Source: Alcanivorax sp. DSM 26293 (lineage in GTDB: Bacteria > Pseudomonadota > Gammaproteobacteria > Pseudomonadales > Alcanivoracaceae). From it: a stretch of DNA of 64,000 nucleotides. The position numbers and the translations under genes are program-made. The stretch is from positions 126,501-190,500 of the forward strand of contig NZ_FNUM01000007.1 in assembly GCF_900107995.1 (NCBI RefSeq), in the 5' to 3' direction. Below the pieces are notes generated by a model. The model saw nothing but the letters and a program-made list of their open reading frames with translations. It ran no database searches and was not told the origin of the DNA. Below, piece by piece: positions 9,449 to 57,230 of this stretch; within the stretch, counting starts at the first letter, position 1, and every line of letters starts with the position of its first letter.

Positions 9449-10915
9449 ATGAAATACCGCGACCTGCGTGACTTTCTGCAACAGCTAGAACAACTTGGCG
9501 AGCTCAAACGCATTACCGCACCGGTGAACCCGAACCTGGAAATGACCGAGATCTGCGACCGCACCCTGCGTGCCGGCGGTCCGGCACTGCTGTTTGAAAA
9601 CCCGGTGGGCTTCGGCACCCCGGTGCTGGGCAACCTGTTCGGCACGGAACGTCGGGTGGCGCTGGGCATGGGCCGCGAGTCCGTTGAGGAGCTGCGCGAA
9701 CTGGGTGAACTGCTGGCCTTTCTCAAGGAACCGGAACCGCCCAAGGGCATGCGTGATGCCTGGGAAAAACTGCCGATATTCCGCAAGGTGCTGAGCATGA
9801 GTCCCAAGCTGCGCGGCTCCGGGCCCTGCCAGGAAAAGGTGCTGGAAGGCGACGACGTGGATCTGTACCAGTTACCGATCCAGACCTGTTGGCCCGGCGA
9901 TGCAGGTCCGCTGGTGACCTGGCCGCTGGTGATCACCCGTGGCCCCAACAAGGAACGCCAGAACCTGGGCATCTACCGCCAACAATTGATCGGCCGCAAC
10001 AAGCTGATCATGCGCTGGCTCAGCCATCGCGGTGGCGCCCTGGATTTCCAGGAGTGGCAGCAGGCCCACCCGGGAGAACCCTTCCCGGTGGCAGTGGCCC
10101 TGGGCGCTGACCCGGCCACCATCCTCGGCGCGGTCACCCCGGTGCCGGATACCCTTAGCGAGTACGCCTTTGCCGGACTGCTGCGCGGCTCCAAAACCGA
10201 GCTGGTGGAATGTATCGGCAACGACCTGCAGGTACCGGCCAGCGCCGAGTTCGTCCTGGAAGGCCATATCTATCCGGACGAGATGGCCGAGGAAGGGCCG
10301 TTCGGCGACCACACCGGCTATTACAACGAGGTGGAACGTTTTCCGGTTTTCACCGTGGAGCGCATCACCCACCGCCGTGATCCGATCTATCACAGCACCT
10401 ACACCGGCCGGCCACCGGATGAACCGGCGGTGCTGGGCGTGGCCATGAACGAGATCTTCGTACCGATCCTGAAAAAACAGTTTCCGGAAATCGTGGATTT
10501 TTACCTGCCCCCGGAAGGCTGCTCCTATCGCATGGCCGTAGTGACCATGAAGAAACAGTACCCGGGCCACGCCAAGCGGGTAATGATGGGCGTGTGGTCA
10601 TTCCTGCGCCAGTTCATGTACACCAAGTTCGTGATTGTCTGCGACGACGACGTCAACGCCCGCGACTGGAAGGACGTGATCTGGGCCATGACCACCCGCA
10701 TGGACCCGGCCCGGGATACCCTGCTGGTGGAAAACACCCCCATCGACTATCTGGATTTCGCTTCTCCGGTATCCGGTCTTGGCTCCAAGATGGGCATGGA
10801 CGCCACCAGCAAATGGCCCGGCGAAACCGACCGGGAGTGGGGCCGCGCCATCAGCATGAGCCCGGCAGTGAAGCAGCGGGTGGATGAGATGTGGGAAAGC
10901 CTGGGAATCAGTTGA
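9449..10915 (+). CDS. ubiD: 4-hydroxy-3-polyprenylbenzoate decarboxylase
   Basis: A 488-residue prenyl-FMN-dependent decarboxylase of ubiquinone synthesis that removes the carboxyl group from the prenylated benzoate ring. Family stretches are [14 protein letters not shown] at the start, [41 protein letters not shown] (cofactor and metal site), [12 protein letters not shown] with the catalytic glutamates, and [19 protein letters not shown]. The length matches UbiD. An AAGGAACG site precedes the ATG. The stop codon (TGA 10913-10915) lies inside the left arm of the repeat that follows. The UbiX partner that makes the cofactor is not in the window. Confidence 0.96.
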
Positions 10916-11073
10916 CAGTGGACAGTTGATAGTTGACAGCTACGCAGTTGAAAGCGGGATGCACGTCAAAAGCACAAGGCCACGTTCAACGCACGGACGC
11001 GGCTGGTAGAGTTGCAGTGAATACGGACACGACCCGCGTAACTGTCAACTGTCCACTATCAACTGCCAACTAT
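10909..11073. repeat. Inverted-repeat element with GTTGACAGT arms
   Basis: Left arm 10910-10945 and right arm 11036-11071 are inverted copies matching at about 30 of 36 positions. Both are made of reiterated words (AGTTGACAGT, GGACAGTTGA, TAGTTGACAG). The roughly 90-base centre contains no good hairpin and no reading frame. The left arm covers the ubiD stop codon; the right arm ends about 40 bases before the Tat-FAD oxidase start. No target duplication or transposase is visible. Confidence 0.75.
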
Positions 11074-26684: not shown

Positions 26685-28925
26685 CTATTCGCCTTTACGC
26701 TCCACCGCCATCTGGTCCACATTCTGGAAACCACGCGGCAGCTTGGCACCGCGGCGGCCCCGCTCCCCGTAATAGTGCTCCAGGTCGCTGGCCTTCAAGG
26801 TCAGGTGGCGTTTGCCGGCATGGATGGTAAGGGCATCCTGCGGCCCCAATACCTGCATGTCCTGCACGAACTCCACCCGGTCGGCCACCCGGGCAGCAGG
26901 GATGGACATCATCTTGTTGCCCTTGCCCCGTGCCATCTCCGGTAGTTCCTTCACCGGGAACACCAACAGACGGCCTTCGTTGGAAACCAGCGCAATCAGA
27001 TCGTCCTCGGTGGACGCAATCGGCTTCGGCGGCAGCACCCTGGCGCCCTTGGGCACCGACAGCACCGTCTTGCCTGCCTTCTTGTTGGCCAGCAGATCCC
27101 CGTAGCGCACCACGAAGCCGTAACCGGCATCGGTACTCATCAGGTAGGCATCCTTTTCCTTGCCCATCACCGCCGCCATAAAGCTGGCCCCGGAGGGTGG
27201 GTTGACGCGGCCGGACAGGGGCTCGCCCTGGCCACGGGCACTGGGCAGGGTATGGGCCGGCAGGGAGTAACTGCGGCCGGTGCTGTCGATGAAGCACACG
27301 GGCTGGTTGGATTTACCCTGGGCCGAAGCCTTGTACTTGTCACCGGCCTTGTAGCTGAGGCCGACCACGTCCACATCATGCCCTTTGGCAGAACGCACCC
27401 AACCTTTCTCGGACAACACCACGGTCACCGGATCGGCGCTGACCAGATCGGTTTCATCCAGCGCCGTTGCCGCATCACGCTCTACCAGCGGAGAGCGACG
27501 GTCGTCACCATACTTGTCCGCATCTTCCTGCAGTTCCTTGGCCACCAACTTTTTCATCTTGGCGGTGGACCCCAGTGTTTCTTCCAACTTTTCCCGTTCT
27601 TCGTTGAGCTCATCCTGCTCACCACGGATCTTCATTTCCTCGAGCTTGGCCAAGTTGCGCAGCTTCAGTTCGAGGATGGCTTCCGCCTGGCGATCAGAAA
27701 TACCGAAACGCTCCATCAGCACCGGCTTCGGTGCGTCTTCGGTACGAATAATATGGATCACCTCATCGATATTGAGGTAAGCGACCAAATAACCTTCCAG
27801 CAGGTGCAAGCGCTCCAACACCTTGTCGAGACGATGCTGCAGACGCCGGCGCACAGTGACCATGCGGAATTGCAACCACTCGTTGAGAATCATATCCAGG
27901 CTTTTTACCTGCGGCCGGCCATCGATGCCGATCATGTTCAGGTTCACCCGGTAGTTCTTTTCCAGATCCGTAGTGGCAAACAGGTGACTCATCAACTGCG
28001 GAATATCCACCCGGTTGGAACGCGGTGTGATCACCAGGCGGGTGGGGTTCTCATGATCCGACTCATCACGCAGATCGCTGACCATGGGCAGCTTTTTCTT
28101 CTGCATCTGGTCGGCGATCTGTTCCAGCACCTTGGCGCCGGACACCTGGTAGGGCAAGGCAGTGATGACGATGTCCCCTTCCTCGCGCTCATACACGGCA
28201 CGCTGCTTGAGTGAACCCTTGCCTTCCGCATACATGCGGATGATGTCGTTCTGGGAAGTAATCACCTCACCCTCGGTGGGGAAATCCGGCCCCTGGATGT
28301 ACTGCATCAGATCATCCAGAGAGGCACCCGGGTCCTTGAGTAGATGGATACAGGCATTGGCCACTTCACGCAGGTTGTGCGGTGGAATATCCGTGCTCAT
28401 GCCCACCGCAATACCTGTGGTGCCGTTCAGCAACACATTGGGCAGACGGGCCGGCAACAGCTTGGGCTCGTCCATGGTGCCGTCGAAGTTGGGCACCCAT
28501 TCCACCGTGCCCTGGCCCAATTCGGAAAGCAGCACTTCCGCATAGGGGGCCAGTTTGGATTCGGTGTAACGCATGGCAGCGAACGATTTCGGGTCGTCCG
28601 CGCTACCCCAGTTCCCCTGGCCATCCACCAGCGGATAGCGGTAGCTGAACGGCTGCGCCATCAGCACCATGGCCTCGTAACAGGCGGAATCACCATGGGG
28701 ATGATACTTACCCAGTACATCGCCCACGGTACGGGCGGACTTCTTGTACTTTGCGGTGGCCTTCAATCCGAGCTCACTCATGGCGTAAACAATACGCCGC
28801 TGCACAGGCTTGAGGCCGTCACCGATATTGGGCAGCGCCCGGTCAAGAATCACGTACATGGAATAATCCAGGTACGCTTTTTCGGTGTAATCCCTTAAGG
28901 GAAAACGTTCAAATTCATCAGCCAT
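26685..28925 (-). CDS. parC: DNA topoisomerase IV subunit A
   Basis: 746 residues, the length of gammaproteobacterial ParC. It cuts and rejoins DNA to unlink daughter chromosomes, with ParE. The winged-helix segment reads [19 protein letters not shown], which carries the Ser and Glu of the quinolone-resistance region in their susceptible form. [14 protein letters not shown] carries the catalytic Tyr. The C-terminal beta-pinwheel has repeated blades such as [30 protein letters not shown]. The gene usually follows parE closely; here a GxxExxY gene and repeat arms lie between them. Confidence 0.98.
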
Positions 28926-28942
28926 TTTTCAGCTCTTTTTTA

Positions 28943-28978
28943 TTTACCACAGAGGACACAGAGGTCACTGAGGAAAAA
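28943..28978. repeat. CCACAGAG-type repeat arm, parC side
   Basis: Reads TTTACCACAGAGGACACAGAGGTCACTGAGG. Its inverted partner is at 29422-29460. It sits 17 bases upstream of the parC start and 3 bases past the end of the GxxExxY gene. The arm is made of the reiterated word CACAGAGG. Confidence 0.85.
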
Positions 28979-28981
28979 CAT

Positions 28982-29356
28982 TCAAATTACAAAGCGTTTG
29001 ATACCGTGAACAAGCTTGGGGACATTGAAATTAATCAACAGTCCTCTCCTGATCTTTGCCAGTCGCATATAGGTGATCACCTGAGCACCATGGAGATCAG
29101 AAAGCGCTTTTACGCTTTTCAGCTCCACCAGCACCTGACCTGCCACAATCAGGTCTACGCGGTAATCACATTCCAGCTTGCAGCCCTTGTAATAAACAGG
29201 AATAGCAACCTGGGAGACTGTAGTCAGTCCTGCCTGATTCAGCTCATGCAGCAAACATCGCTCATAAACTGATTCCATAAAACCAGGCCCCATATGCCGG
29301 TGCACTTCGATAGCACAGCCAATAATGGTTCCTGTCAGCTCATCGTTTTCCAGCAT
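28982..29356 (-). CDS. GxxExxY family protein, predicted PD-(D/E)xK nuclease-like
   Basis: 124 residues from ATG 29356 (MLENDELTGTIIGCAIEVH), preceded by AAGGAAG. The family signature is GPGFMESVYERCL (Gly-x-x-Glu-x-x-Tyr). CDYRVDLIVAGQVLVELKSVKAL fits the D...ExK core of the PD-(D/E)xK nuclease fold, so a nuclease or DNA-end role is plausible but unproven. It interrupts the parE-parC pair and is bracketed by inverted CCACAGAG repeats. The AT-rich flanks and isolated codon character suggest later acquisition. It may be the mobile or maintenance gene of the repeat element. Confidence 0.85.
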   Translation of the reverse strand: MLENDELTGTIIGCAIEVHRHMGPGFMESVYERCLLHELNQAGLTTVSQVAIPVYYKGCKLECDYRVDLIVAGQVLVELKSVKALSDLHGAQVITYMRLAKIRRGLLINFNVPKLVHGIKRFVI

Positions 29357-29382
29357 GGCTTCCTTTCCAATGCTGCTTCGAT

Positions 29383-29460
29383 TTACCACAAAGAGATCAG
29401 AGCGCACGAAGAGATTTATCTTTTCATCTCTGTGAACTCTGTGCCCTCTGTGGTGAAAAA
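29383..29460. repeat. CCACAGAG-type repeat arm, parE side, with a second decayed copy
   Basis: 29422-29460 reads TCATCTCTGTGAACTCTGTG then CCCTCTGTGGTG, the inverse of the arm at 28943-28978, matching well through CACAGAGNNCACAGAGG. Just inside it, 29383-29418 holds a decayed direct-orientation copy (ACCACAAAGAGATCAGAGCG). The arm ends at the base before the parE stop codon (29461-29463). Confidence 0.8.
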
Positions 29461-31347
29461 TCAGATCTCAGCCAGATTCCCTTTCTCTTCCAGCCAGATT
29501 TTGCGATCGGAGGCGCGCTTCTTGCTCAGCAACATATCCATCAGCTGGTGGGTGTCGTCGCCGCCGGTCACTTCCAGACGTACCAGCCGGCGGGTGTCCC
29601 GGGCCATGGTGGTTTCGCGCAGTTGTAGCGGGTTCATCTCGCCCAGGCCCTTGAAGCGGGTGACATTGACCTTGCCGCGTTTCTTCTCGGCCTTGATGCG
29701 GTCCAGCACCCCTTCGCGCTCTTCCTTGTCCAGGGCGTAGTACACGTCCTTTCCCACATCGATGCGGTACAGCGGAGGCATGGCCACGAACACATGACCG
29801 TTCTTCACCAGCGCCGGGAAATGGCGCAGGAACAGGGCGCAGATCAGGGTGGCGATGTGCAGACCGTCAGAATCCGCATCGGCGAGGATACACACCTTGC
29901 CGTAACGCAGGCCGCCCAGATCATCACTGCCCGGCTCGATACCCAGTGCCACAGCGATATCGTGAATTTCCTGACTGCCCAGCACCTCGGCGGAATCCAC
30001 TTCCCAGGTGTTCATGATCTTGCCGCGCAGGGGCATGATGGCCTGGTAGACCCGGTCCCGGGCCTGCTTGGCAGAGCCTCCCGCCGAGTCCCCTTCCACC
30101 AGAAAGATTTCACTCTGGGAAGGGTCGTCGCTGGTGCAGTCAGCCAGCTTGCCGGGCAATGCCGGGCCACTGGTGACTTTCTTGCGAGTGACTTTCTTGG
30201 CAGCGCGCAGTCGCTTCTGGGCATTGTTGATGCACAGGTCCGCCAGCTTCTCGGCCTCATCGGTGTGCTGGTTCAACCACAGGGAAAACGCATCCTTGAC
30301 CACGCCGGAGACAAACGCGGCGGTCTGCCGGGAACTGAGACGCTCCTTGGTCTGGCCAGCGAACTGCGGGTCCTGCATCTTGACACTGAGCACATAGGCA
30401 ACCCGGTCCCAGATATCTTCCGGGGTCAGTTTGACACCACGGGGCAGCAGGTTGCGGAACTCACAGAACTCGCGCATGGCTTCCAGCAAGCCAGAGCGCA
30501 GCCCATTCACGTGAGTCCCCCCCTGGGGAGTGGGAATCAAGTTAACGTAGGATTCCTGCACCAGCTCGCCACCTTCCGGTAGCCACATCACCGCCCAGTC
30601 CACCGCTTCGGTTTCTGCGCTCATGGCGCCATTGAAGGGTTCATCCGGTACCCGCTCCCAGCCCCGGCCGGATTCCAGCAGGTATTCGATCAGGCCATCG
30701 GCGAACTGCCAGCTGTCGGTTTCGCCGCTGACCTGGTTGTCCAGGGTGACCAGCAGGCCCGGGCACAACACCGCCTTGGCGCGCAGCAGATGCTTGAGCC
30801 TGGACACGGAAATCTTCGGGGAATCGAAGTATTTGGCATCGGGCCAGAAACGCAGAATCGTGCCGGTGTTGCGCTTACCGACGGTGTCGACCACTTCCAG
30901 GTCGCTGCGTTTTTCGCCATCACCGAATTCCATGCGGTGCAGCTGGCCATCCCGTTTCACCAGGATCTCCAGCTTGGTGGACAGGGCATTCACGACCGAG
31001 ACGCCCACCCCGTGCAGACCACCGCTGAACTGGTAGTTGTTGTTGGAGAACTTGCCGCCGGAATGCAACGTGGACAGGATCACTTCCACACCAGGCTTTT
31101 TCTGCACCGGGTGCATGTCCACCGGCATGCCGCGACCATCATCTTCCACTTCCACCCCGCCATCCTTCAGCAGCGTGACCTTGATGGATTTGGCATGGCC
31201 GGCCAGGGCTTCATCCACGGAGTTGTCGATGACTTCCTGGGCCAGGTGATTGGGGCGGGAGGTATCGGTGTACATCCCCGGGCGCTTGCGCACCGGGTCG
31301 AGGCCCGACAACACTTCAATATTTTCGGACGTATACGTATTGGCCAT
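29461..31347 (-). CDS. parE: DNA topoisomerase IV subunit B
   Basis: 628 residues, normal ParE length. The GHKL ATPase motifs are VIDNSVDEALAGHA (Asn/Glu), VEDDGRGMPVDMHP and the glycine-rich GGLHGVGVSVVNALS. The TOPRIM metal site is LVEGDSAGGSAKQARDR with VCILADADSDGLHI. The C-terminus has RFKGLGEMNPLQLRETTM. ATPase partner of ParC in decatenation. It is followed by yqiA and cpdA upstream, as in E. coli (cpdA-yqiA-parE). Confidence 0.98.
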   Translation of the reverse strand: MANTYTSENIEVLSGLDPVRKRPGMYTDTSRPNHLAQEVIDNSVDEALAGHAKSIKVTLLKDGGVEVEDDGRGMPVDMHPVQKKPGVEVILSTLHSGGKFSNNNYQFSGGLHGVGVSVVNALSTKLEILVKRDGQLHRMEFGDGEKRSDLEVVDTVGKRNTGTILRFWPDAKYFDSPKISVSRLKHLLRAKAVLCPGLLVTLDNQVSGETDSWQFADGLIEYLLESGRGWERVPDEPFNGAMSAETEAVDWAVMWLPEGGELVQESYVNLIPTPQGGTHVNGLRSGLLEAMREFCEFRNLLPRGVKLTPEDIWDRVAYVLSVKMQDPQFAGQTKERLSSRQTAAFVSGVVKDAFSLWLNQHTDEAEKLADLCINNAQKRLRAAKKVTRKKVTSGPALPGKLADCTSDDPSQSEIFLVEGDSAGGSAKQARDRVYQAIMPLRGKIMNTWEVDSAEVLGSQEIHDIAVALGIEPGSDDLGGLRYGKVCILADADSDGLHIATLICALFLRHFPALVKNGHVFVAMPPLYRIDVGKDVYYALDKEEREGVLDRIKAEKKRGKVNVTRFKGLGEMNPLQLRETTMARDTRRLVRLEVTGGDDTHQLMDMLLSKKRASDRKIWLEEKGNLAEI

Positions 31348-31353
31348 AGATTT

Positions 31354-31436
31354 TCCAGAAGCGCCAGACGCATGACGCCAGACGCTGAACGCTTGGCAAG
31401 ATCAAGCGTCTGGCGTCTGGCCTCGGGCATCAGGCG
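31354..31436. repeat. Inverted-repeat element with GACGCCAGACGC arms
   Basis: Left arm GCGCCAGACGCATGACGCCAGACGCTGAACGCTTG (31362-31396) and right arm CAAGCGTCTGGCGTCTGGCCTCGGGCATCAGGCGTG (31403-31438) are inverted and built of the word GACGCCA. The right arm contains the yqiA stop codon (TGA at 31430-31432). It fills the gap between yqiA and parE. Confidence 0.8.
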
Positions 31437-32029: not shown

Positions 32030-32158
32030 CAATTGATAATTGAGAATGGATAATTGATAACGAAAGAGCCTCTCAGGCCCCGGACAAGTTGTCCATTATC
32101 AATTGAGGATTCACGGTTTTAGCTATCAATTATCCATTCTCAATTATCAATTAATCAG
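32030..32158. repeat. Inverted-repeat element with perfect 29-base AATTGATAATTGAG arms
   Basis: The left arm, 32031-32059, reads AATTGATAATTGAGAATGG then ATAATTGATA, and has an exact inverted copy at 32124-32152. A third, partial copy lies at 32091-32107 (CCATTATCAATTGAGGA). The cpdA stop codon touches the right arm; the yqiA start is 10 bases from the left arm. The centre has GAGCCTCTCAGGCCCCGG but no long hairpin. Confidence 0.85.
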
Positions 32159-37694: not shown

Positions 37695-37856
37695 AATTAA
37701 TAGTTAATAATGAATAATTAATAACGACGCGCTTACAGCGCATGCCCTGCTGAAAGCAAAGAGGCCGCGCCCAACTCTGGGCGCGGCCTCTTTGCTTTCA
37801 GGATAAAAAAACGTTGTCTCACGAAACTATTAATTATTCATTATTAACTATTAATT
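37695..37856. repeat. Inverted-repeat element, perfect 29-base arms, hairpin core copy 3
   Basis: The left arm, 37695-37723, is AATTAATAGTTAATAATGAA then TAATTAATA; it has an exact inverted copy at 37828-37856. The core hairpin 37751-37800 is a perfect 23-base stem with a 4-base loop (TGAAAGCAAAGAGGCCGCG side). The right arm encodes the last residues and stop of WaaA. The left arm is identical to that at 57071-57099. Confidence 0.9.
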
Positions 37857-40396: not shown

Positions 40397-40467
40397 CCGT
40401 AGGAGCAAGCGTCGTTGGCGGCGCGATTCCGTGCGTGGTTAATCGCGCCGCCAGCGACGCTCCTACG
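40397..40467. repeat. GTAGGAGC-type long palindrome, copy 1
   Basis: CCGTAGGAGC-aagc-GTCGTTGGCGGCGCGATT pairs with AATCGCGCCGCCAGCGACGCTCCTACGG around a 12-base loop; the left side has a 4-base insertion. It is the same element as at 56026-56088. Half copies occur near 16643, 23325 and 55101. This REP-like family starts with GTAGGAGC, as many Pseudomonas REPs do. Confidence 0.85.
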
Positions 40468-55100: not shown

Positions 55101-55280
55101 GTAGGAGCGCCGCTCTCTGTGCTCTGCCATTATGAGGCTCAAGCATCCAGTTTTGAGTTACGAGAAGCGAGTCTCGAAAGGCAAAAGATTTTTGGGTTTT
55201 CGCAACTCGTTACTCGCTTCTCGGCACTCTCAATTGAGCGAGGCATTCGTGCCTCATACTCGCAGAGCGCAGAGAGCGGC
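55101..55280. repeat. Nested inverted-repeat element inside the urt operon
   Basis: Outer arms GCCGCTCTCTGTGCTCTGC (55109-55127) and GCAGAGCGCAGAGAGCGGC (55262-55280) pair with one mismatch. Inside them TATGAGGC pairs with GCCTCATA (55131-55138/55251-55258), GCTCAA with TTGAGC, and GAGTTACGAGAAGCGAG (55155-55171) with the CTCGTTACTCGCTTCTCG block (55206-55223). It starts with a half GTAGGAGC element. There is no gene in it. It separates urtD from urtE by 217 bases in an otherwise tight operon. Confidence 0.85.
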
Positions 55281-56025: not shown

Positions 56026-56088
56026 GTAGGAGCGTCGCTGGCGGCGCGATTCCATAGGCTGATATCGCGCCGCCAGCGACGCTCCTGC
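56026..56088. repeat. GTAGGAGC-type long palindrome, copy 2
   Basis: GTAGGAGCGTCGCTGGCGGC then GCGAT pairs with ATCGC then GCCGCCAGCGACGCTCCTGC with one mismatch, around a 13-base loop. Same family as 40397-40467. It follows urtE and may end the urea operon, although it has no T-run. Confidence 0.85.
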
Positions 56089-56168: not shown

Positions 56169-57083
56169 ATGCTCCACCGCTTGACCCAACTCTTTCCACT
56201 CTGGGCCCTGCTGTTTTCCCTGCTGGCCTACTGGCAGCCGGCCCTGCTGGTGGGCGGCAAGGGGGCCATTGTGCCGCTACTGATGCTGATCATGTTCGGC
56301 ATGGGCCTGTCGCTGACCTGGGAGGATTTCCAGCGGGTGCTGCGCCAGCCGGGCACCATTGGCCTGGGCCTGCTGCTGCAGTACAGCCTGATGCCACTGC
56401 TCGCCTTTGCCATCGGCATCGCCCTGCAGCTCCCCCAGGAATTGCTGGTGGGGCTGGTGCTGGTGGGTGCCTGTCCTGGCGGCACCGCGTCCAACGTGAT
56501 CGCCTATCTGGCGCGGGCGGATGTGGCTCTGTCAGTGGCCATTACCTTTGCCTCTACCCTGTTGGCGGTGGTTGCCACGCCCTTGCTGACCTGGGTGTAT
56601 CTGGGGGAGCGCATCCCGGTGCCCATTGATGGCATGCTGATTTCCCTGCTGCAGATCGTACTATTGCCGGTGACCGTGGGCTGTTTTCTCAATACCCGAT
56701 TTGCCCGCCAGCTGGCACCGCTACGGGATGTCTTCCCGCTGGTGTCCGTGGCGGCCATTGTGGGGGTGATCGGGATTATCGTCGCCCTGAACCAGGGCCA
56801 TATTGCCCAGGCCGGCATGGCCATCTTTATTGCCGTGGTGGCCCATAACGGTCTCGGCCTGGCCAGTGGCTATGGCATCGCGCGCCTGCTTTGTCTGGAC
56901 AAAAAGCGCGCCCGCACCCTGGCCATCGAAGTGGGCATGCAGAATTCCGGTCTGGGTGTGGCGCTTGCAGTAAAACACTTCAGCGCCATGGCCGCCCTGC
57001 CAGGGGCCCTGTTCAGCATCTGGCACAATCTGTCCGGATCGTTGTTGGCGACGATTTGGCGGCGAAAGGCAATTAATAGTTAA
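56169..57083 (+). CDS. Bile acid:sodium symporter (BASS) family transporter
   Basis: 304 residues with about nine to ten membrane helices. Family features: LLMLIMFGMGLSLTWEDFQRVLRQP, and GACPGGTASNVIAYLARADVALSV, the sodium-site region of BASS proteins. The substrate is probably an organic anion such as pyruvate, pantothenate or a 2-oxoacid; that cannot be told from sequence. The last residues (AINS) and stop TAA lie in the repeat arm at 57071. Confidence 0.92.
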   Translation: MLHRLTQLFPLWALLFSLLAYWQPALLVGGKGAIVPLLMLIMFGMGLSLTWEDFQRVLRQPGTIGLGLLLQYSLMPLLAFAIGIALQLPQELLVGLVLVGACPGGTASNVIAYLARADVALSVAITFASTLLAVVATPLLTWVYLGERIPVPIDGMLISLLQIVLLPVTVGCFLNTRFARQLAPLRDVFPLVSVAAIVGVIGIIVALNQGHIAQAGMAIFIAVVAHNGLGLASGYGIARLLCLDKKRARTLAIEVGMQNSGLGVALAVKHFSAMAALPGALFSIWHNLSGSLLATIWRRKAINS

Positions 57084-57230
57084 TAATGAATAATTAATAG
57101 CTCGCGGGTTGACGCTGCGAGTCTTTCAAACGGCAAGAGGCCGCGCCCAGAGTTTGGACGCGGCCTCTTGGTTTGGATAGCTCCGGTGCTCTTGCGCGCG
57201 TTATTAATTATTCATTATTAACTATCAATT
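57071..57230. repeat. Inverted-repeat element, 29-base arms, hairpin core copy 4
   Basis: The left arm, 57071-57099, is identical to the arm at 37695-37723. The right arm, 57202-57230, is its inverse with one change. Core hairpin 57134-57170 is CAAGAGGCCGCG-c-CCA pairing with TGG-a-CGCGGCCTCTTG. The left arm supplies the BASS stop codon and the right arm touches the pdxH stop codon. Convergent genes. Confidence 0.9.

Follow-up and report, generated by a model that had tools for sequence, protein, structure and literature searches.

The window analysed here is a stretch of 64,000 nucleotides from Alcanivorax sp. DSM 26293. Between two genes that the initial annotation named parE and parC, it holds a short gene encoding a GxxExxY protein, together with inverted repeats built of short tandem units. 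The features of this region are, in order:

26685-28925, minus strand, parC (name from the initial annotation), context gene
28940-28972, plus strand, outer arm on the parC side, with the units CACAGAG (28948), CACAGAG (28957) and CACTGAG (28966), period 9
28982-29356, minus strand, GxxExxY gene of the PD-(D/E)XK nuclease family PF13366/TIGR04256, 124 codons and a stop
29381-29415, plus strand, third, degenerate inner arm, made of the repeat families 29381-29407 and 29405-29415 and judged by eye to pair with the parE-side arm
29428-29460, minus strand, outer arm on the parE side, with three CACAGAG units in the minus-strand reading, period 9
29461-31347, minus strand, parE (name from the initial annotation), context gene

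The initial annotation had described the gene as enclosed by inverted arms between parE and parC, and this description holds. The outer arms are 33 nt each, 85% complementary and separated by 455 nt, and each carries three tandem 7-nt CACAGAG-like units. On the parE side the arm ends at 29460, one base short of the parE stop codon (29461-29463), while the parC-side arm starts at 28943 in the initial annotation, 17 nt from the parC start at 28925, and at 28940 in the repeat analysis, 14 nt from it. The string CACNNAGNNCACNNAG occurs five times in the window, four times within the outer arms; 100 shuffles gave a mean of 0.18 occurrences and a maximum of 2. The inner arm (29381-29407) is 74% identical to the parC-side arm in the same orientation and lies just inside the parE-side arm. 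Because it adjoins the latter, the parE side can make a small hairpin alone.

The gene begins with an ATG at 29356 and ends with a stop codon at 28982-28984, and the same locus also allows a longer, GTG-started frame of 141 aa. Its protein is a member of both PF13366 (E 5.8e-43; 146.4 bits, curated cut-off 22) and TIGR04256 (E 1.6e-44; 151 bits, cut-off 35). In alignment numbering its motif residues are G32xxE35xxY38, D75, E85-x-K87 and Q99, and among 37 aligned GxxExxY proteins, a selection from the 64 gene loci introduced below, E35, Y38, D75, E85, K87 and Q99 are invariant. The GxxExxY signature and the nuclease-like D...ExK core first read from the 124-codon gene are thereby confirmed. We take D75, E85 and K87 to be the PD-(D/E)XK catalytic residues, and the arrangement of D, ExK and Q(xxxY) is the RecB/Cas4-type pattern of these nucleases. 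A Pfam search of the window protein (E up to 1) returned PF13366 only and no Y1 (HUH) transposase domain, and no solved structure matched it in sequence. Broken copies of the gene are found at L036, L047, L053 and L058, and in L018 a stop falls close to where the match begins. A phage or plasmid vehicle is disfavoured, with no GxxExxY match in 50,697 phage records searched and matches in 8 of 72,556 plasmid records. The literature searched contained almost nothing on GxxExxY proteins except isolated mentions, one in the context of reverse transcriptases, and the arm strings led to unrelated work.

To set the locus beside its relatives, 64 GxxExxY loci from several phyla were assembled, 59 of them relatives from genome contigs and 5 from the window's order, including the window's own; PF13366 is present in 4 of the 293 genomes of that order. 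Control windows for arm score, CRCNRAG pairs and the PF05635 loci considered later were taken from elsewhere in the same loci. The best inverted-arm score between the flanks had a median of 17.25 at the 64 loci compared with 9.5 in 879 control windows. The 99th percentile of the controls was exceeded at 41 loci, and 34 loci exceeded the 95th percentile obtained when left flanks were paired with right flanks from other loci. Strict paired CRCNRAG units stood on both sides of 31 of 62 genes (L063 and L064, with 78-nt matches, are left out of this count) and in none of 1580 control windows. Twenty-three of the 64 loci fell below the arm threshold, and L005, L060, L063 and L064 had nothing over 8.5. 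Some loci use other units, namely AACGAAG (four Prevotella-like loci), ACAGGAG (L033, L037) and CATGAAG (L009). In the Sphingobacteriaceae, to which G328 (the Pedobacter genome carrying L010) belongs, the median arm score of gene loci was just 13.5 (27 scored of 30, three being cut by contig ends). Since gene and arms occur together in many genomes, the enrichment of arms beside GxxExxY genes elsewhere, which had been put forward as a check, is positive, and the proposal of a compact element whose sole gene encodes a nuclease-like protein is supported. The case that gene and arms are one unit is strong.

A separate observation concerns Ignavibacteria-like genomes, in which L011, L012, L013, L017, L018, L020, L025, L027, L053 and L058 apparently occupy one site with different arm units. 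The flanks of this site are hemE-like and coproporphyrinogen-oxidase-like genes.

Unit sequence and nuclease subfamily tend to go together, also where the sites differ. The 35 arm pairs at gene loci span a median of 437 nt; their variable columns agreed between left and right at 0.71 compared with 0.47 across pairs (0/5000 permutations). For gene-less pairs, agreement was 0.49 vs 0.36 in the window's genus (11 pairs, 37/5000) and 0.83 vs 0.40 in G266 and its relatives (6 pairs, 25/5000); the gene-less copies of G226 (7 elements) and G331 (5) had no excess of left-right covariation. On the protein trees, in which 38 of 57 rows were labelled and L018, L036, L047, L053 and L058 were left out for stops in the matched segment, the base before CCAC changed once as opposed to 8.1 times after shuffling (0/300 as low). 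The fifth unit base changed 8 times against 12.2 (2/300), and the second 7 times against 9.0 (15/300, a weak signal). A Sphingobacteriaceae sample of 40 genes from eleven genomes, drawn from 327 matches in 99 gene-positive genomes, could be grouped by eye into subfamilies, each with its typical unit, among them CACCGATT, CACAGAT, AGGATT, CGCAGAT, CATATAAG, CACNAAG and CACAGAG. For 391 pairs lacking homologous flanking frames, the similarity of the arms correlated with that of the proteins (Mantel rho 0.38, 0/2000 permutations), using 29 of the 40 genes, the other 11 having no arm above 11.5. Arms and gene therefore appear to move together between sites, by whatever means. Among these 40, genes from the same genome do not cluster overall (33 label changes vs 30.7 shuffled), the exceptions being L318 and L319 of one genome, which group together, and other genomes that hold two genes in one subfamily.

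Arms are also found without the gene. Across the order, the three-unit arm pattern is present in 15 of 293 genomes, in 10 of them in multiple copies on both strands; the remaining five are G221, with a simple tandem array on one strand, and four genomes with a single match. The gene occurs in 3 of the 10 multi-copy genomes vs 1 of the 283 others (Fisher p 1e-4). The initial annotation had held that arms equally common without the gene would speak against its reading, and on this point the outcome differs by group. In the window's genus, with five genomes to compare, arms are indeed no rarer without the gene, with 17 (G000) and 54 three-unit matches in the gene-positive genomes and 65 (G282), 26 (G243) and 8 (G263) in the gene-negative ones. 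G000 has a single GxxExxY gene and at least two gene-less hairpins (L100, L199). Sphingobacteriaceae do not follow this picture. There the CACNRAG pattern occurs in 27 of 99 gene-positive and 0 of 102 gene-negative genomes (p 6e-10) and the CACAGAT pattern in 12 of 99 and 0 of 102 (p 1.4e-4), neither these p values nor the other genome counts being corrected for relatedness. Both arm types are absent from 71 of the 99 gene-positive genomes. Of the 7 genomes in which the CACAGAT nuclease has a close relative, 4 have CACAGAT arms, vs 8 of the 194 others (p 2.4e-4). Just 4 of the 12 CACAGAT-arm genomes hold a matching-subfamily gene, which in one case is broken, and CACAGAT arms are missing from 3 of the 7 genomes that do have a CACAGAT-subfamily gene. 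The link of arms to the matching subfamily is thus partial, and weaker than the link to gene presence.

It had also been proposed that sister strains be compared for an empty site at the parE-parC junction. The last 99 aa of parE found a match in 46 of 46 genomes of the family, and 30 parE-parC junctions were read. Four are near-empty (2, 3, 3 and 20 nt), and in G317 parC begins ~38 nt on by eye. CACAGAG elements occupy the junction in G000 and G263, and grouping by eye assigns the hairpins at the other 23 junctions to different unit types. Near-empty sites therefore do exist in the family, but none is closely related to the window allele. The gene-less CACAGAG elements of G263 and G160 look like internal deletions because they retain the apparent last codons of the GxxExxY gene; in G160 the GxxExxY gene lies on the opposite side of parE. 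G300 has a parE 99.4% identical to that of the window and a different hairpin between parE and parC. Compared with G300, the window drops to 94% identity along the final 100 nt of parE. Through the initial 540 nt of parC, identity in 60-nt steps is 90-100%, and from there to the end of the 726 nt compared it is back at 100%. From this pattern the window allele looks to have been brought in by homologous recombination, and no donor of the parE-parC tract was found. Direct insertion at parE-parC in the window strain is unsupported, since the flanks resemble a recombined tract relative to G300.

Two known systems offer themselves for comparison. In REPIN-RAYT systems, an enzyme gene lies beside palindromic repeats with gene-less copies elsewhere, distinct enzyme-repeat types share one genome, and the closest relatives of an enzyme are in other genomes (PMC3116915). 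GxxExxY genes are alike in lying beside inverted repeats with gene-less copies elsewhere and in forming several enzyme-repeat types per genome; whether their closest relatives are in other genomes is a less even match, given the sampled genomes in which two genes share a subfamily. They differ in encoding a PD-(D/E)XK nuclease where RAYT is a Y1 transposase, and in arms of tandem 7-nt units with a period of 8-9, the gene often standing between both arms. As the enzyme is unrelated, the GxxExxY element is not a member of REPIN-RAYT. The second system, the 23S intervening sequence, is characterized as a small ORF enclosed by terminal inverted repeats that can pair into a long stem, with the S23p protein as a homopentamer (PMC4990558). 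The window element is likewise an ORF within terminal inverted repeats. It differs in sitting between parE and parC, whereas the named 23S copies sit in rRNA.

The S23p family itself (PF05635) occurs in 16 of 17 genomes of the window's genus vs 0 of 14 control genomes. All 29 scorable of its 30 loci (L145-L174) exceeded the 99th percentile of 350 control windows for inverted arms. Like GxxExxY genes, the PF05635 genes of the genus thus have tandem-unit inverted arms; unlike them, the period is a clear 7 in the 27 arms analysed (self-match 0.73), while GxxExxY arms peak at 8-9 (0.45, 0.38), and S23p is not a nuclease. Y1_Tnp (RAYT-type) genes are also present in 16 of 17 genus genomes, where the same arm measure gave a median of 9.5 and ~10 of 28 scored genes were flanked by REP-type hairpins. 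Two further resemblances are looser. GxxExxY proteins share the D, ExK, QxxxY arrangement with Cas4/RecB-like nucleases, and the Cas4 profile gave weak matches for two relatives (best E 4.1e-5), not for the window protein. Cas4 has a cysteine cluster, whereas GxxExxY proteins are much shorter and have no invariant cysteine among the 37 aligned. As with MITEs, there are gene-less inverted-repeat copies of the arms, some in G331 with 6-7 nt duplications; unlike MITEs, the arms are tandem units and the sole gene found inside is the nuclease.

These comparisons lead to a reading that we regard as evenly poised, a partnership of nuclease and hairpin working like REPIN-RAYT or the 23S intervening sequences with an unrelated enzyme. 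A long hairpin, each arm of which comprises about three 7-nt units with a period of 8-9, would carry the gene for a RecB/Cas4-like nuclease in its loop. The nuclease would recognise the tandem units in hairpin or cruciform form, both in its own arms and in gene-less copies, and might nick or trim them. By analogy with what RAYTs are thought to do for REPINs, such nicking or trimming could let the arms be copied to new sites in trans, and deletion derivatives would be descendants of gene-bearing elements. Judged from sequence, it is likely that the nuclease acts on the arms. That it drives their spread is plausible, with real contrary evidence.

Part of this contrary evidence lies in where the gene-less copies sit, and it favours the alternative in which RAYT or IS transposases move the hairpins as generic repeats, with the nuclease gene carried along as cargo. 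By simple patterns, REP-like sequence lies on both sides of 11 of 13 gene-less copies in G226 and on at least one side of all 13; of 22 distinct gene-less places in the window's genus, in nearly all genomes of which RAYT-type genes occur, 7 have it on both sides and 9 on one or both. The gene-less copies of G331 (L279-L294) are contained in a MITE of ~190-215 nt with the CACAGAG arms inside and ends resembling GAGTCTACTGAAAAA and GGCTCCCCTGAAAAAA. Six of these copies had both ends found by script, with a duplication of 6-7 nt in three, 4 nt in two and none in one; that of L279 was seen by eye. One end of the MITE is shared with the gene-bearing L021. Given copies in REP-like repeats and in a MITE with duplications, other enzymes may therefore have amplified some gene-less arms. 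The same copies suggest that insertion at hairpin tips could be a target rule. Counter to such a rule, just 7 of the 22 places in the genus have REP-like sequence on both sides, and most G520 copies share no outer repeat (of 17 stretches, 12 have flank pairs with some similarity). Within 90 nt, just 5 of the 17 CACAGAT places in G520 have a clear inverted partner arm. Against the cargo alternative, the carriers vary by host although the nuclease is accompanied by similar units in several phyla, and arms were found in 0 of 102 gene-negative Sphingobacteriaceae. We hold repeats with a cargo gene to be quite improbable.

An element acting at the level of RNA, as the 23S intervening sequences do, is also unlikely, if slightly less so. 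The arms would pair in a polycistronic transcript, RNase III would cut the stem and the neighbours would be insulated, leaving the nuclease as a passenger or acting on the RNA stem. The predicted transcript fold does pair the arms (-195.8 kcal/mol, z -6.1, 0/100 shuffles). Neighbours are co-oriented upstream at 52 of 60 loci and downstream at 49 of 59 (crude gene calls, no control), and the PF05635 genes of the genus show the same gene-in-arms plan at every scorable locus. RNase III is reported to cut 23S intervening sequences (PMC4990558). Such an element would leave unexplained why units match subfamilies and why arms are limited to gene-positive genomes, and the one 23S motif tried was in none of 360 loci, many of them short. 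Very improbable, finally, is that the arms serve just to regulate a nuclease with a selfish, toxin-like or defence role. The protein is a small conserved nuclease, and two relatives match Cas4 weakly; however, the window protein had no PADLOC or PHROGs profile match at E 0.1, broken copies are tolerated, phage and plasmid records hold few or no matches, and the dispersed gene-less arms would be left without explanation.

More tentatively than the partnership itself, GxxExxY nucleases may constitute a widespread, undescribed enzyme-hairpin class parallel to REPIN-RAYT, in which a minimal Cas4/RecB-like nuclease reads tandem units and several orthogonal pairs share a genome. Together with the period-7 arms of S23p (PF05635), this class may belong to a larger one, that of genes within tandem-unit hairpins, whose named part would be the 23S intervening sequences. 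The association suggests an overlooked partnership of a nuclease with hairpin sequences scattered through genomes. If true, a common, little-described protein family would gain a function, a class of dispersed hairpins would be accounted for, and there would be a further example of repeats changing in step with their enzyme. The findings also have a bearing on the origin of 23S intervening sequences, because PF05635 shows the same plan outside rRNA here.

Dispersed hairpins are present in the window itself, the type of the ~7-nt-unit ones (units such as AATTAATAGTTAATAATGAATA) being assigned by eye:

10909-11071, gene-less hairpin, units of ~7 nt
31362-31436, gene-less hairpin, units of ~7 nt
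32031-32152, gene-less hairpin, units of ~7 nt
37695-37856, gene-less hairpin, units of ~7 nt
40408-40461, REP-like hairpin (AGGAGCGTCGCTGGCGGCGCGAT), of the type flanking some RAYT-like genes in the genus
55148-55236, gene-less hairpin, units of ~7 nt
56028-56086, REP-like hairpin (AGGAGCGTCGCTGGCGGCGCGAT), of the same type
57071-57230, gene-less hairpin, units of ~7 nt

The sole Rfam match was sub-threshold, to mir-6301 (25 bits vs 70), on the neighbouring hairpin at 31362-31436. Several arms in the window are ~35 nt long, equal to five units, a number that may or may not be connected with the S23p homopentamer. By eye, the gene-less hairpins with ~7-nt units resemble the arms that flank PF05635 genes in the genus.
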